Shown piece after piece: positions 3,082 to 36,734 of a DNA stretch of 38,755 bases (positions within the stretch are counted from its first letter, which is position 1; the number at the start of each line of letters is the position of its first letter). Where the stretch lies: positions 1 to 38,755 of the forward strand of contig WJLX01000157.1 in NCBI GenBank assembly GCA_014728225.1, read 5' to 3'. Under the pieces are notes generated by a model that ran no database searches, was not told the origin of the DNA, and worked only from the letters and a program-made list of their open reading frames with translations. This DNA is from Candidatus Coatesbacteria bacterium (GTDB taxonomy: Bacteria; RBG-13-66-14). The translations under genes and the position numbers were made by a program.

Positions 3082-3150
3082 CCGGGTGATCGAACATGCT
3101 GCCGACTTTCAGTCGACCTGGCTATCTGACCAATAAGGTTAGCCCCCTGG
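3082..3150 (-). pseudogene. tRNA-Phe(GAA)-like relic
   Basis: On the minus strand a D-arm-like hairpin (GGCT..AGCC with a loop containing TTGGTCAGA) is followed by a five-pair anticodon-type stem GTCGA/TCGGC closing the loop CTGAAAG. Its anticodon GAA (complement of 3108-3110) would read Phe. A T-loop-like TTCGATC follows. Only six nt separate the anticodon stem from the T loop, so the variable loop plus T stem are too short, and I cannot pair an acceptor stem. I read it as a broken tRNA-Phe gene or a tRNA-like remnant, not a working tRNA. Confidence 0.35.
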
Positions 3151-3155
3151 TATGG

Positions 3156-3384
3156 CCCACCAGCTTAGCTCACCAGCTTCGCTCGCCTGCTTAGTCCACC
3201 AGCTTAGCTCACCAGCTTCGCTCGCCTGCTTAGTCCACCAGTTTAGCCCACCAGCTTAGCCCACCTGCATAGCCCATTAGCTTCGTCCACCAGTTTAGCC
3301 CACTAGCTTCGCCCATCTGCTTAGCCCACCAGCTTAGCCCATCTGCTTAGCCCACCAGCTTAGCCCACCTGCTTAGCCCACCAG
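3156..3384. repeat. 13-bp minisatellite, about 17.6 units, between tRNA genes
   Basis: Consensus CCCACCAGCTTAG, repeated head to tail in exact 13-bp register from 3156 to 3384, with substitutions but no change of length. A higher-order duplication is visible: 3169-3207 and 3208-3246 differ at one base. It lies inside the minus-strand tRNA block, between tRNA-Lys and the Phe-like relic, so it is probably transcribed (minus unit CTAAGCTGGTGGG) and removed during tRNA processing. Five units contain, on the minus strand, GCTGGTGG, the octamer known as Chi in E. coli. Confidence 0.9.
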
Positions 3385-3395
3385 TCGATTCGACC

Positions 3396-3471
3396 TGGTG
3401 AGGCGCCTGGGGGTCGAACCCAGGACCCACGGCTTAAAAGGCCGTTGCTCTACCAACTGAGCTAGCGCCTC
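3396..3471 (-). tRNA. tRNA-Lys(UUU)
   Basis: 76 nt with encoded CCA. The acceptor GAGGCGC/GCGCCTC pairs perfectly and the D arm reads GCTCAGTTGGTAGAGC. The anticodon stem ACGGC/GCCGT encloses CTTTTAA (anticodon TTT, complement of 3436-3438). The T arm carries GGGTTCGACCCCC. It is the first gene of the minus-strand tRNA block and has its own promoter upstream. Confidence 0.96.
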
Positions 3472-5107: not shown

Positions 5108-5460
5108 GGCTTCTTCGCTAATGAGGCGGTTGCGTGTATCGGCCGTCGGCCGAGCACGACGGCCGTGACGGCCCAGGGAACGGTCAACGACAAGGAGCTC
5201 GTCGCGGCGAACTCCAAGTGCACGACGCCCTGGGCTTAACCGGCCAGGACGAGGATCGCCGTCAGTCCGATCGTCGCCGGCAGGATGCGTCCAGACACCA
5301 AGAGGCAGGACGGTCCGAGAGCGGTGCGGTCGGTCAGGGCGAGAAAGCAGGGCACCGCGGTCGGCTCGTGGAGCAGCCGGTGACGGGGCGAAGGTTGGAC
5401 ATCGCCAAAACGACAGGGATCGCGCACGACCTCGACCATTCCGCTACCGTCCCCGGCCGC
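5108..5460. other. Gene-poor stretch upstream of ddl
   Basis: No recognisable gene. On the minus strand one frame is open on both sides of a TAA at about 5236-5238 and ends in a TGA overlapping the ddl ATG (ATGA). Its peptide (containing LPATIGLTAILVLAG, stop, then SLSLTVPWAVTAVVLGRR) has hydrophobic runs. A decayed membrane-protein gene is possible, but nothing in it is recognisable. The ddl promoter should also lie here; I see no clear -35/-10 pair. Confidence 0.3.
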
Positions 5461-5652
5461 GCCCGCCGCGGCCGTTGAAAACCGACGCGGTTGCCGCCCG
5501 CCTCGCCCCGCCCGGAACTGGCACGGTTTTTGCATCTCGGCGACCGTTGGAGCGAGTGTAACGGGGCGCCTCCGCAAAAACCGTGCCAGTTCCGGGCGGG
5601 GCTCTCGCGTAGCGCGGCGGGGGGCTGGTGCTCTTCAACGGTCGCGGCGGGC
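5461..5652 (+). repeat. Nested inverted-repeat element, copy 1
   Basis: The outer arms 5461-5469... to 5479 and 5634-5652 pair over 19 bp with one G-T. The inner arms 5506-5533 and 5574-5601 are perfect over 28 bp and end in ACTGGCACGGTTTTTGC. They enclose a 40-nt spacer beginning ATCTCGGCGA and ending CGCCTCC, inside which CCGTT (5544-5548) can pair with AACGG (5560-5564). Each inner arm carries the GG-N10-GC spacing of a -24/-12 sigma54 promoter, so the two point at each other. The outer end lies 4 bp from the stop codon of the cyclase gene (minus). Orientation is given by the ATCTCGG side of the spacer. Confidence 0.9.
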
Positions 5653-5656
5653 GGTC

Positions 5657-9666: not shown

Positions 9667-9849
9667 CCGGACCCGCGCCCGTCGAGGAAAGCATCGCGGC
9701 GCCCGGGCGCCGCGCTTGCCGGAGTTGGCACGGTTTTTGCATCTCGGCGAGCGCGCGAAACTCCCGCCGGTGTCGCCTCCGCAAAAACCGTGCCAACTCC
9801 GGCCGGGGAGAGCCAGCGTCGTCGCCGGGAGCGGCGGGCGCGGGTCCGG
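9667..9849 (+). repeat. Nested inverted-repeat element, copy 2
   Basis: Outer arms 9667-9681 and 9835-9849 pair perfectly over 15 bp (CCGGACCCGCGCCCG). Inner arms 9718-9740 and 9781-9803 pair perfectly over 23 bp and end in AGTTGGCACGGTTTTTGC. The spacer is 40 nt (9741-9780) and contains GGCGA/TCGCC. Compared with copy 1, ACTGG has become GTTGG and the opposite arm has changed to match. The element starts 4 nt after the CcdA-like stop and ends 22 nt before the glycosylase ATG, filling the whole gap. A perfect palindrome GCGGCGCCCGGGCGCCGC lies between outer and inner left arms. Confidence 0.9.
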
Positions 9850-17301: not shown

Positions 17302-17491
17302 CCGGAAAAACAGCCCGCCGAACCGCGCCGGACCCTGTCCAATCGACCAGCGCCCGCCCCGGAACCGGCACGGTTTTTGCATCTCGGCGACCGTTGGGCC
17401 GACGGCAACGGTCCGCCTCCGCAAAAACCGTGCCGGTTCCGGGGCGCGGAGGTGTGGTGACCCCGGCTCCGGCGGCGGGCTGTTTTTCCGG
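17302..17491 (+). repeat. Nested inverted-repeat element, copy 3
   Basis: Outer arms 17302-17320 and 17473-17491 pair perfectly over 19 bp (CCGGAAAAACAGCCCGCCG). Inner arms 17356-17380 and 17421-17445 pair perfectly over 25 bp and end in ACCGGCACGGTTTTTGC. The 40-nt spacer (17381-17420) contains the 7-bp stem ACCGTTG/CAACGGT. Relative to copy 1, T has become C in one arm and A has become G in the other, so pairing is kept. It lies between the divergent micro-ORF unit and the 62-aa gene. Confidence 0.9.
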
Positions 17492-20197: not shown

Positions 20198-20249
20198 TTT
20201 AGACCGTCAGTATGAAAAGGACAAGCGCCATTCGGTTTGCCCGCAGCGA

Positions 20250-20421
20250 CGACCGCGACGCGGCCCAACCCGGGGCGCCCGCGGCCGCCCCGCCCGGAAC
20301 TGGCACGGTTTTTGCATCTCGGCGAGCGTTGGAGCGATGTTAACGCTGCGCCTCCGCAAAAACCGTGCCAGGTCCGGGCGGGTCAAGTTGCGGCGGCGTC
20401 AATCAGGCCGCGTCGCGGTCG
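20250..20421 (+). repeat. Nested inverted-repeat element, copy 4
   Basis: Outer arms 20250-20265 and 20406-20421 pair perfectly over 16 bp (CGACCGCGACGCGGCC). Inner arms 20289-20315 and 20356-20382 pair over 27 bp with one mismatch and end in ACTGGCACGGTTTTTGC. The 40-nt spacer (20316-20355) contains AGCGTT/AACGCT, a compensated change from ACCGTT/AACGGT in copies 3 and 5. It lies between the comEA-like stop and the start of the outer-membrane protein gene, both on the minus strand. Confidence 0.9.
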
Positions 20422-20443
20422 CCGCAGCTCAACGGACGTGGCT

Positions 20444-24620: not shown

Positions 24621-24669
24621 GCGGCGTTCGACCGTCTAACACGCCGGCGAAGAGGTAACGACGAATACG

Positions 24670-25000
24670 CAGGGGCCGACCGGCAGGTCGGCCCGATTGA
24701 GCTTGACACGTAGGGCGGGGGGCTCTGCCCCCCGCCGGCCTTGTCACGTAGGGCGGGGGCTCCGCCCCCCGCCGCGGATCATCGTCCAACTCGTCGCCAT
24801 TCAACCACTGATGAAATGGGCCTCCATCCCCGGTTGGGAGACTGCAGGAGCCGACGTTCAGGTCGGCCCGTTTGAGCTTGTCACGTAGGGCGGGGGCTCC
24901 GCCCCCCGCCGCGGATTGTCCAGCTGCACGCCATTCCAACGGCGGTGAAACGGGCATCCGCTTGTCACGTAGGGCGGGGGCTCCGCCCCCCGCCGCGGAT
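24670..25000. repeat. REP-like cluster between convergent genes
   Basis: Three identical 40-bp units (24740-24779, 24877-24916, 24961-25000) begin CTTGTCACGTAGGGCGGGGG and end GCCGCGGAT; a fourth diverged unit lies at 24702-24740. Each folds into a GC hairpin (GGCGGGGG.. with ..CCCCCGCC). In the diverged unit the stem is perfect over 10 bp; the three identical units share a one-base loss in the left arm. The segments behind units 2 and 3 (24780-24825 and 24917-24958) are also alike, so the real unit is nearer 85-90 bp. Two related hairpins GCCGAC..GTCGGC (from 24674 and 24850) precede units 1 and 3. No gene is visible between 24621 and 25014. Confidence 0.88.
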
Positions 25001-25014
25001 TGGATGGACGCTAG

Positions 25015-25747: not shown

Positions 25748-25817
25748 CCCCGGCGCGTGTTTTTGCCCGAGCCCGTCCCTTCAGGGACGGGCTCGGCGAG
25801 CAAAAACCGTGACGGGG
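25748..25817. repeat. Degenerate member of the nested inverted-repeat family
   Basis: Left arm 25748-25766 ends GTTTTTGC; right arm 25800-25817 reads, on the minus strand, CCCCGTCACGGTTTTTGC. Pairing is imperfect. The interior is a perfect 13-bp hairpin (25767-25779 with 25784-25796, loop TTCA) in place of the 40-nt spacer. The GG of the -24 box is lost. It lies just downstream of the TlpA-like gene stop at 25840. Confidence 0.6.
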
Positions 25818-25839
25818 ACGGCCCAACGGCGGCGACGCC

Positions 25840-30700: not shown

Positions 30701-31990
30701 ATGGGAAGCGACTACAGCGTCGTCATCGCCCTGATCGTCTTCGCCTTCGTCTACGTCATGGTCGTCACCGACTGGGTCAACCGGACGAAGGCGGCCTTCT
30801 TCGGCGCCCTGGTGCTGCTCCTCGGCGGGGTCATCGACCTCGAGACGGCCTGGGTCGAGTACATCGACTTCGAGACCCTGGGCCTGCTCATCGGGATGAT
30901 GGTCATCGCCGGGGTCATCGGCCAGACCGGCATCTTCCAGTTCACCGCCCTCAAGGCCGTGCGCTGGACCCGGGGGCGATACGGCCTGCTGATGGTCACG
31001 CTGTGCGTGATCACCGCCGTCTTCAGCGCCTTCCTCGATAACGTCACCACCATCCTGCTGCTGGGCCCGATCGCCATCATCGCCTCCGACGCCCTGCACC
31101 GCAAGCCCCTGCTCCTGCTGATCGCCATCACCTTCGCCTCCAACATCGGCGGCATGGCCACCCTGATCGGCGATCCGCCCCACATGATGATCGGCTCCGC
31201 CGTCGGGCTGAGCTTCAACGACTTCCTGGTCAACCTGGCCCCGATGTCGATCATTGCCCTGGCGGTCACCCTCGGGCTGCTCTACCTCTCCAAGCGCCAC
31301 ATCATCACCGCCGGCGGCAAGCCCTACCGTCCCACCTTCGACGAGGCCCGCTACATCAAGGACAAGCGTCAGACCGTCATCGGCCTGGTCGTCCTGGGTC
31401 TGGTGATCGTCGGCTTCACCATCCTGCCCGAGTTCGGCATCCCGGTGGCCGTGGTGGCCCTGTTCGGCGCCAGCGCGCTGATGCTGCTCAACCCCGGTAA
31501 AGTCAAGGAGCAACTCGGGCATATCGAATGGCCGCTGATCTTCTTCTTCATCGGTCTGTTCGTCATCACCGGCGCCCTGCAGGAGGTCGGCGTCATCGCC
31601 TGGCTGGGACGCCAACTGGCCGGGATCACCACCGACCCCCTGCTGTTCACCATGATCGTCCTCTGGGCCAGTACCATCGGCGTGGCCCTGTTCTCGGCGG
31701 TGCCCTACGTGGCGGTGATGATCCCCATCGTCTCCCACGCCGTGGGGCTGATGGGCCTGGGGCCGGCGGCGGCTGAGCCCATCTGGTGGTCCCTGGCCAT
31801 CTCCGTGGCGATCGCCGGTAACGCCACCATCGTCGGCTCGGCGGCCACCATGGCCGCGGTCAGTATCTCCGAACGCACCAACGAGCCGATCACCTTCCGC
31901 ACCTACCTGCGCTACGGTTTACCGACGATGCTCCTCGTCCAGCTCTGCTCGACGGCCTATCTCTGGCTGCGCTACTTCGTCCCGGGCTAG
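30701..31990 (+). CDS. ArsB/NhaD-superfamily transporter, first paralogue
   Basis: 429 aa, about 11-12 membrane segments. FETLGLLIGMMVIAGVIG, AFLDNVTTILLLGPIAI and LIGDPPHMMIGSAVGLSF are the signatures of the ArsB/NhaD (ion transporter) superfamily, including the two discontinuous helices with Asn/Asp-Pro. Substrates in the family include Na+/H+, arsenite and organic anions; this one is close to the P-protein group by eye. It ends near the CBS gene and has a 429-aa relative at 32504-33793. Control by the EIIA protein upstream is inferred. Confidence 0.82.
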   Translation: MGSDYSVVIALIVFAFVYVMVVTDWVNRTKAAFFGALVLLLGGVIDLETAWVEYIDFETLGLLIGMMVIAGVIGQTGIFQFTALKAVRWTRGRYGLLMVTLCVITAVFSAFLDNVTTILLLGPIAIIASDALHRKPLLLLIAITFASNIGGMATLIGDPPHMMIGSAVGLSFNDFLVNLAPMSIIALAVTLGLLYLSKRHIITAGGKPYRPTFDEARYIKDKRQTVIGLVVLGLVIVGFTILPEFGIPVAVVALFGASALMLLNPGKVKEQLGHIEWPLIFFFIGLFVITGALQEVGVIAWLGRQLAGITTDPLLFTMIVLWASTIGVALFSAVPYVAVMIPIVSHAVGLMGLGPAAAEPIWWSLAISVAIAGNATIVGSAATMAAVSISERTNEPITFRTYLRYGLPTMLLVQLCSTAYLWLRYFVPG

Positions 31991-32503: not shown

Positions 32504-33793
32504 ATGTTCGACTTCCCGACCATCCTCACCCTGGCCGTGCTGGGCTTCGTCTACTTCGCCGTGGTCTCCGAGCGGATACCCCGGATGAAGGCCGCCTTCC
32601 TCGGCGCCATGCTGCTGATCGCCGCCCGGGTGGTGACCCTCGAGGCCGCCTGGACCGAGTACATCGATTTCGAGACCATCGGCCTGCTCGTCGGGATGAT
32701 GATCATCGCCGGGATCATCGGCGACACCGGCGTCTTCGGCTACGTAGCCCTCAAGGCCGTCAAGCTGACCCGGGGCAACTACGCCCTGCTGACCGTCGCC
32801 CTGGCGGTGATCACCGCCGTGTTCAGCGCCTTCCTCGACAACGTCACCACGGTGCTGTTACTGGCGCCGATCGCCATCTTCGCCGCCGACGTCCTGCACC
32901 GCAAGCCCCACGTCCTGCTGATCGTGATGGCCCTGGCCGCCAACATCGGCGGTACGGCCACCCTGATCGGCGATCCGCCCAACATGCTCATCGGTTCGGC
33001 CGCCGGGCTGACTTTCGCCGAGTTCCTGCTCAACACCGGCCCGGCCGCCCTGATCGGCCTGGCCGTCACCCTGGGTTACACCCTGCTGGTCAACCCCGAG
33101 CTGCGGCAAAAATCAGCCGGGCGGATCGACCCCGCCGGCTTCGACGAATCCAAGCAGATCACCGACCGCCGGACCCTGCTCTACAGCCTCGTCGTCCTCG
33201 GTCTGGTGCTGGTCGGCTTCGTCGTTCTGCCCGGCCTCGGTGTGCCCACCGCCGCCACCGCCCTCGTCGGCGCCGCATTGCTGATGGTCGTCAACCGTAC
33301 CGAGCCGGAGAAGCTGCTGGCCAAGGTCGAATGGCCGCTGATCTTCTTCTTCATCGGCCTGTTCGTCATCACCGGCGCCCTGGGCGAGGTCGGCGTCGTC
33401 CAGGCCGTCGGCCGCTTCTTCGCTACCCTGACCCCCGATCCCTTCTGGCTCTCCATCGTCGTCCTCTGGCTGGCCACCTTCGGCGCCGCCTTCCTCTCCG
33501 CCGTCCCCTTCGTCACCGTGATGATCCCGATCACCGCGGCGGCGATCGCCCACCTCGGCCTCTCCCCCGCCGCCGCCCAGCCCGTCTGGTGGGCCCTCTC
33601 CCTGGGAGCCTGCTTCGGCGGCAACGGCACCATCATCGGCTCCGCCGCCAACATGGCCCTCGTCGGCATCTCCGAGCGCACGCGGGAGCCGCTGGACTTC
33701 AAGGGCTTCTTCGGTTTGGGCATGCCCACCCTGCTCCTCGTCCAGCTCGCCTCGACGGCCTACCTCTGGTTGCGCTACTTCGCCTTCGGCTAG
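32504..33793 (+). CDS. ArsB/NhaD-superfamily transporter, second paralogue
   Basis: 429 aa, same length as the first paralogue and very similar in FETIGLLVGMMIIAGIIG, AFLDNVTTVLLLAPIAI, ATLIGDPPNMLIGSAAGLTF, EWPLIFFFIGLFVITGAL and STAYLWLRYF. DPPN here against DPPH in the first at the putative substrate turn may mean different ions. The pair arose by duplication with the CBS gene between them. The end of the gene is followed at once by AT-rich imported DNA. Confidence 0.82.
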   Translation: MFDFPTILTLAVLGFVYFAVVSERIPRMKAAFLGAMLLIAARVVTLEAAWTEYIDFETIGLLVGMMIIAGIIGDTGVFGYVALKAVKLTRGNYALLTVALAVITAVFSAFLDNVTTVLLLAPIAIFAADVLHRKPHVLLIVMALAANIGGTATLIGDPPNMLIGSAAGLTFAEFLLNTGPAALIGLAVTLGYTLLVNPELRQKSAGRIDPAGFDESKQITDRRTLLYSLVVLGLVLVGFVVLPGLGVPTAATALVGAALLMVVNRTEPEKLLAKVEWPLIFFFIGLFVITGALGEVGVVQAVGRFFATLTPDPFWLSIVVLWLATFGAAFLSAVPFVTVMIPITAAAIAHLGLSPAAAQPVWWALSLGACFGGNGTIIGSAANMALVGISERTREPLDFKGFFGLGMPTLLLVQLASTAYLWLRYFAFG

Positions 33794-34403: not shown

Positions 34404-34424
34404 AGCGAAAAGCAAGCCGCTCAC

Positions 34425-34610
34425 CGCCCGTTGAAAAACAGCCCCCGCCCGCATCGAACCGGTCAGGCTGCTATCACCCGGCCGGAACTGGCACGGTTTT
34501 TGCATCTCGGCGACCGTTGGGACGGCGGCAACGGTCCGCCTCCGCAAAAACCGTGCCAGTTCCGGCCGGGGCGGCGGCCCGGGTGGGGGGGGGCTGTTTT
34601 TCAACGGGCG
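34425..34610 (+). repeat. Nested inverted-repeat element, copy 5
   Basis: Outer arms 34425-34446 and 34589-34610 pair perfectly over 22 bp (contain GTTGAAAAACAGCCCCC). Inner arms 34477-34503 and 34544-34570 pair perfectly over 27 bp and end in ACTGGCACGGTTTTTGC. The 40-nt spacer (34504-34543) contains ACCGTTG/CAACGGT. The right outer arm overlaps the -35 box of the next gene's promoter, so folding could affect its transcription. Confidence 0.9.
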
Positions 34611-34627
34611 GGGGCGACTGCTATAAT
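34599..34627 (+). promoter_or_regulatory. Promoter of the RNase-H-like gene
   Basis: TTTCAA (34599-34604), a 17-nt spacer, TATAAT (34622-34627), 28 nt before ATG. The -35 box is within the outer arm of repeat copy 5. Confidence 0.6.

Positions 34628-35396: not shown

Positions 35397-36734
<1,338 letters not shown>

Follow-up and report, generated by a model that had tools for sequence, protein, structure and literature searches.

A dense family of nested palindromic repeats with sigma54-like inner arms in Candidatus Coatesbacteria

The window analyzed here, a stretch of 38,755 nucleotides from a Candidatus Coatesbacteria MAG, carries five copies of a palindromic repeat that recurs in high copy number across the source genome. 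The repeat has a nested architecture, its arms are strictly paired and covary by Watson-Crick changes only, its copies are intergenic with a bias towards the 3' ends of genes, and its presence or absence differs between genera. The account that we favor, with a little over even confidence in its full form, is that of a high-copy, non-autonomous palindromic mobile repeat whose copies are not sigma54 promoters of neighboring genes. The element fits the description of a palindromic interspersed repeat that is REPIN/MITE-like, without a RAYT gene and without constant ends. The family reaches a very high density for palindromic repeats in a phylum that is uncultured, filling approximately 40% of the tandem and convergent gaps that are eligible, and it raises the question of whether sites bound by an alternative sigma factor can travel on a mobile repeat.

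The source genome (G000; 2.96 Mb, 181 contigs, 96.8% complete) contains at least 235 exact arm pairs, compared with 0 for a reversed control pattern. A search of named genomes for the arm pair returned a single additional record, also from a Candidatus Coatesbacteria MAG. The assemblies are MAGs, often broken at these repeats, and elements of the larger form, class A, are interrupted by the ends of G000 contigs C3, C16, C17, C20, C21, C26, C83, and C113. Since many contigs of this MAG end inside class A, much of the fragmentation of the assembly is attributed to the repeat, and the true copy number is taken to exceed that counted. Detailed reading covered 1.06 Mb (36%) of the genome and yielded 127 copies of class A and 21 of class B. 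A scan of the same 1.06 Mb for inverted repeats, blind to sequence, found 139 pairs, of which 124 were class A or B and the other 15 were short; no other arm type with class A architecture was present in the 1.06 Mb read. All 245 exact arms in this sample were paired, located at a contig end, or, in one case, within a class B pair. A parent element that is autonomous, with widely separated arms enclosing a transposase gene, was rejected because this class B pair accounted for the sole unpaired arm away from contig ends.

A class A element is a nested palindrome of approximately 200 bp comprised of an outer stem (P1), unpaired linkers, inner arms (P2), and a hairpin (P3), and its folds are very stable. 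The P2 arms (CCGGAACYGGCACGGTTTTTGC) are 22 bp long and are followed by an asymmetric internal loop (ATCTC / CTCC) and then P3, while each side of the element has a linker of approximately 43 nt and then a P1 of approximately 20 bp. P1 scored 12 or higher in 84 of 90 copies, against an average of 8.4 for a control in which right flanks were taken from other copies. The sequence of P1 varies from copy to copy around GAGACCKTTGAAAAACAGCC, and within one copy both P1 arms match. The related class B is shorter and encloses a perfect GC hairpin; an outer stem was not noted for it. A fully palindromic ancestor with decayed linkers was rejected, as complementarity between the two linkers of a copy does not exceed that between linkers taken from different copies. 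Adjacent class B palindromes were observed at approximately 2431-2608 of locus L121 (G000 contig C84), with arms GACGGCACACTTCTTGC in one and GGCGCGCGTTTTTGC / GGCACGGTTTTTGC in the other.

Facing arms of the form [CT][CT]GGCACGGTTTTTGC, separated by the 40-nt spacer that the earlier note had described, occur in five window copies, at 5518, 9725, 17365, 20300, and 34488. The window holds 13 matches to the arm motif with up to 3 mismatches, compared with a mean of 0.34 and a largest value of 2 in shuffled sequences. Copies 1, 4, and 5 read CTGGCACGGTTTTTGC exactly in both arms (at 5518/5574, 20300/20356, and 34488/34544), just as previously written, and the copies at 9725 (TTGGCACG...) and 17365 (CCGGCACG...) each have a one-base change that is present in both arms. 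Approximately 27-46 nt outward of the inner arms, each window copy is enclosed by a further stem, 15-27 bp in length, and the interval 5506-5601 first assigned to copy 1 covers only the inner part of the element. On the forward strand, copy 1 spans 5460-5653 (P1 5460-5479 / 5634-5653; P2 5512-5533 / 5574-5595; P3 spacer 5534-5573), copy 2 spans 9667-9849 (P1 9667-9681 / 9835-9849; P2 9719-9740 / 9781-9802), copy 3, which has C-form arms (CCGGCACG), spans 17302-17491 (P1 17302-17320 / 17473-17491; P2 17359-17380 / 17421-17442), copy 4 spans 20246-20425 (P1 20246-20265 / 20406-20425; P2 20294-20315 / 20356-20377), and copy 5 spans 34424-34611 (P1 34424-34450 / 34585-34611; P2 34482-34503 / 34544-34565). 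Class B is represented on the forward strand at 1945-2015, where arms GGCCGGCGCGGTTGTTGC flank a perfect GC hairpin and no outer stem was noted. GG-N10-GC is preserved, as had been noticed, in each arm of the repeat at 1949-2011 (CCGGCGCGGTTGTTGC / CCGGCACGGTTGTTGC), but this repeat is a member of this second, shorter family and not the relic, placed at 1930, for which it was taken. A further class B element on the reverse strand (25752-25823) has a second arm that is one base longer (GGCGCGTGTTTTTGC), by which GG-N10-GC is lost.

Changes in the arms occur in pairs. Among the P2 pairs of 61 aligned copies, 36 cells were altered on both sides and 1 on one side, a covariation never reached by shuffles, and at a polymorphic C/T position 52 copies had C-G, 38 had T-A, and 0 were mixed. 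No G-T excess was present among P1 mismatches. RNA-level selection on the arms was rejected since the paired arms show no G-U tolerance, and this Watson-Crick-only change suggests that pairing is kept, by selection or copying, at the DNA level. A structured RNA was likewise rejected; Rfam at the gathering score returned tRNAs only, and permissive hits were generic hairpins far below the cut-off. The arms are possibly kept identical by arm-to-arm copying (e.g. template switching) or by selection that acts on the dyad in its double-stranded form or on a hairpin extruded from it. Template switching makes inverted-repeat arms identical through quasipalindrome correction (PMC8604942, PMC7202029) and would account for arms changing together, but it is a mutational process rather than an element and leaves the copy number and the conserved core unexplained. 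What keeps both arms identical is a question raised by outer stems that are copy-specific yet internally matched, with no known transposase.

Relatives were sought with a covariance model of P2 and P3, with up to 150 candidates scored per genome. Matches numbered at least 109 in the sister genus (G001) and at least 36 in G006 (88% complete, 7% contamination), with few in G003 and G005, and there were none among the candidates scored (up to 150 per genome) in seven other genomes of the phylum. The facing pattern GGCAC-N5-TTGC was found 249 times in G000 and 155 times in G001, vs 2 or fewer times in each of 288 other genomes. Arms are uniform inside each genus and different from genus to genus: G001 shares the architecture but uses an arm of its own (TTGGCACGTTTCTTGC; GGCKTTGGCACGTTTCTTGC), with P1 in 69 of 81 copies, while genus g4 has GGCGGTGGCACAGTTTTTGC facing GGCGGTGGCACAGGTTTTTGC without P1. 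Some orthologous gaps differ in occupancy, indicating that copies were gained or lost between genera. Where G001 carries the element, orthologous G000 gaps of approximately 7, 16, 108, or 130 bp have none, and the gap before coaE (named from sequence reading) is occupied in G001 by an arm pair resembling class A, in G000 by a class B element. Some placements are shared with G001 (approximately 11 of 39 distinct orthologous 3' ends vs a 16% baseline), so that loss as well as gain is possible. The G001 copies at L147 (contig C19) and L150 (contig C242), near contig starts, have flanks complementary almost to the contig end; they are either very long palindromes or assembly fold-backs, and were set aside as possible cases of the latter. 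Carriage by viruses was rejected, with 0 matches to the repeat in viral contigs, and a literature search on Coatesbacteria repeats found nothing relevant.

As a non-autonomous mobile element, the repeat of approximately 200 bp would spread through the intergenic DNA of the lineage and would act as folded or dyad-symmetric DNA. A putative host or transposon protein would read the inner arms (GGCAC-N5-TTGC core) and move or maintain the repeat; the likeness to a -24/-12 promoter sits within this core, and RpoN may bind some copies. Class A is a high-copy intergenic inverted doublet that forms a hairpin, as is a REPIN, and it shares with REPINs the inverted conserved blocks around a variable spacer in which paired bases change together (PMC3116915). 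It further resembles REPIN and REP/BIME sequences in its hundreds of intergenic copies and lineage-specific sequence, but differs in having no Y1_Tnp/RAYT and no clusters, in that a GTAG foot was not noted, and in the addition of an outer stem of copy-specific sequence. ERIC and MITE-type repeats are imperfect palindromes of 100-200 bp that are intergenic, non-coding, and of high copy number. The element is alike in all of these features, but neither a target duplication nor terminal inverted repeats that are conserved were found here, and its outer stems match within a copy and differ between copies. A transposase partner was not found, and a RAYT-driven REPIN was rejected because Y1_Tnp had 0 matches in the 96.8% complete genome. 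No target-site duplication could be defined in an element whose ends are not sharply bounded. P1 stems that are variable yet perfectly paired are unusual as a transposon end and count against a mobile repeat.

The match of the arms to a sigma54 site is real in its letters, and from the sequence a use of the arms by RpoN is a candidate role. The earlier note had made the sigma54 reading hinge on rpoN, and one rpoN gene is indeed present in the genome (503-aa ORF at L046:475-1983, contig C26; PF04552, E=1.2e-56) with an intact RpoN box (RRTVAKYRKQMKIPSS). Presence of rpoN was rejected as a discriminator, however, since genomes of the phylum have the gene whether or not they carry the repeat, which makes it uninformative. 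The 445-aa ORF at 35397-36734 (forward strand) is, as proposed, a sigma54 activator with PAS, Sigma54_activat, and HTH_8 domains, and its action on the repeats is without support. Sites were scored with a matrix built from Salmonella sigma54 sites (PMC3844500), which range from 15.1 to 20.5 bits, and the copies scored were recruited by models built on these same arms. On this scale T-form arms reached 21.5/18.2 bits, equal to or above real sigma54 promoters, and G001 arms, of other sequence, reached 19.4/16.1 bits. The consensus TGGCACG-N4-TTGC with GG-N10-GC, to which the arms had been likened, holds for T-form arms and G001 but is weaker in the C-form and broken in one arm of genus g4, where GG-N11-GC is found in 28 of 28 copies (5.6 bits) despite rpoN in its members G003 and G005. 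C, not T, precedes GG in 72 of 126 G000 copies (57%), which is the most variable position and lowers the arms to 15.7/12.4 bits, while T before GG is present in all Salmonella sites used. The base after TTGC is A in the left arm, as reported and in agreement with consensus W, and G in the right arm, so that W is present in one arm only. Class B arms scored 5.7/9.7 bits. Furthermore, conservation reaches 7 bp past the sigma54 site, through CCGGAAC, which is conserved nearly as strongly as the site.

Sigma54 positions 3, 4, 14, 15, and 16 are classed as important and positions 1, 8, 9, 10, and 12 as unimportant (PMC4591121). Deviations in G001 fell on important positions 0 times and on unimportant positions 14 times, and deviations fixed in both arms of G000 fell on them 0 and 8 times, respectively (0 vs 22 for the two genomes together), while G000 one-arm mismatches strike important positions 7 times. 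Avoidance of critical bases by both-arm deviations would be expected under a sigma54-like reader and would make pure chance less attractive. This avoidance is not specific to sigma54, as the same would result from any protein that reads a pair of half-sites with a loose stretch between them. The sigma54-critical bases nonetheless look specially protected, which a purely structural account would not foresee.

The earlier note had allowed for a chance likeness within a structured element. That the sigma54 likeness arose by chance within the recognition sequence of the repeat is compatible with a mobile repeat and is a plausible reading, though one we hold tentatively, given that the conserved block of 22 bp exceeds the sigma54 site, that class B and g4 relatives depart from that site, and that many motifs could have been compared in spotting the likeness. 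It has to contend with an 11-letter match at the correct spacing, estimated at random odds of approximately 3e-6 over the frames of one arm, and with a match that is kept in a second genus where other letters changed and substitutions spare critical bases. The element as a whole is better explained as a structured mobile repeat, and pure chance looks less likely in light of G001.

Alternatively, sigma54-RNA polymerase could dock on the facing arms and stay there as a closed, inactive complex, the copies serving as decoys or two-way roadblocks with no activator needed. This is unlikely. The scores of T-form and G001 arms, within or above the range of Salmonella sites, the position of both-arm deviations where sigma54 tolerates change, the presence of rpoN, and the abundance of facing pairs in G000 and G001 are consistent with docking, and placement at 3' ends would suit an insulator; the replacement of T by C before GG, the comparable conservation of the CCGGAAC flank, the spacing in g4, and the low class B scores are not. 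Trapping also needs no palindrome or arm pairing, yet unpaired arms are essentially absent, and sigma54 bound inside genes of E. coli gave no roadblock (PMC4591121), which argues against that role. Slightly more doubtful still is a combined reading in which a mobile repeat built facing sigma54 sites into its arms and would be maintained by docking of inactive sigma54-RNA polymerase. If this combined reading were true, several hundred RpoN docking sites in the genome would buffer free RpoN or insulate operons both ways, and arm sequences would drift by genus at RpoN-tolerated bases only.

Class A copies lie between genes, with gene calls from our own codon-usage predictions rendering placement figures approximate. 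Occupied gaps of at least 230 bp comprised 77 of 167 tandem (46%), 26 of 63 convergent (41%), and 13 of 64 divergent gaps (20%; p=4.6e-4). Copies are nearer to stop codons than to starts, with a median of 112 nt from inner arm to stop codon, and their orientation is random relative to genes and to neighboring copies. A replication-polarised signal was rejected, as neighboring copies were co-oriented in 45 of 81 cases (p=0.19) and a run within single contigs did not survive. No clusters or tandem copies of class A were present in the sample, where the minimum spacing was 1009 bp.

Proximity to stop codons and very stable folds, along with P1 stems that often read AAAAACAGCC...GGCTGTTTTT and contain AAAA in 48 of 84 cases, would be compatible with a role at the ends of operons, either as transcription terminators working in both directions or as 3'-end hairpins of mRNAs. 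We regard this as improbable, since the lack of G-U tolerance in the paired arms is unlike RNA-level selection, the A/T run is missing from 43% of P1 stems, loops are at least 130 nt, there is no strand preference, and many orthologous 3' ends are without the element. Working convergent sigma54 promoters, fired by activators in both arms to give overlapping transcripts or expression of flanking genes, are highly improbable despite the consensus match, the activator gene in the window, and promoter-like sites 30-50 bp before G000 genes (18.1-21.7 bits on the Salmonella-site matrix) that suggest the signal is used in the genome: divergent gaps are depleted, 104 of 179 element sites in the sample face no same-strand gene, orientation is random, and the T-form shows no enrichment among copies with a gene downstream (convergent share 15 of 52 for T-form vs 12 of 70 for C-form). 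Promoters firing toward each other, as first envisaged, are left without support by the scarcity of copies in divergent gaps and their position close to stop codons, by the T to C change, and by the broken g4 spacing. To our knowledge, no regulon has hundreds of sigma54 promoters. T-form arms share TGGCACG-N4-TTGC and GG-N10-GC with -24/-12 promoters, but face inward within a perfect palindrome and are biased to 3' ends rather than placed upstream of a driven gene, with the conserved T lost in more than half of copies and the spacing broken in a relative. Annotation of these genomes with sigma54 promoter predictors would yield hundreds of calls that are false or, at the least, non-standard.

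Promoter-like sigma54 sites that are not part of the repeats were observed at L064:11974, L052:19530, L101:10920, and L086:231, 30-49 bp before predicted gene starts, and judged by sequence they likely belong to a real sigma54 regulon. Elsewhere in the window, a tRNA-Lys gene (3396-3471) is adjoined by at least 16 tandem 13-bp units (3101-3423), and another GC-rich hairpin repeat (GCTTGTCACGTAGGGCGGGGGCTCCGCCCCCCGCCGCGG) is present in 4 copies at 24669-25002. CitMHS/ArsB-type transporter genes form a similar tandem pair at 30701-31990 and 32504-33793, with DNA approximately 75-93% identical in stretches.
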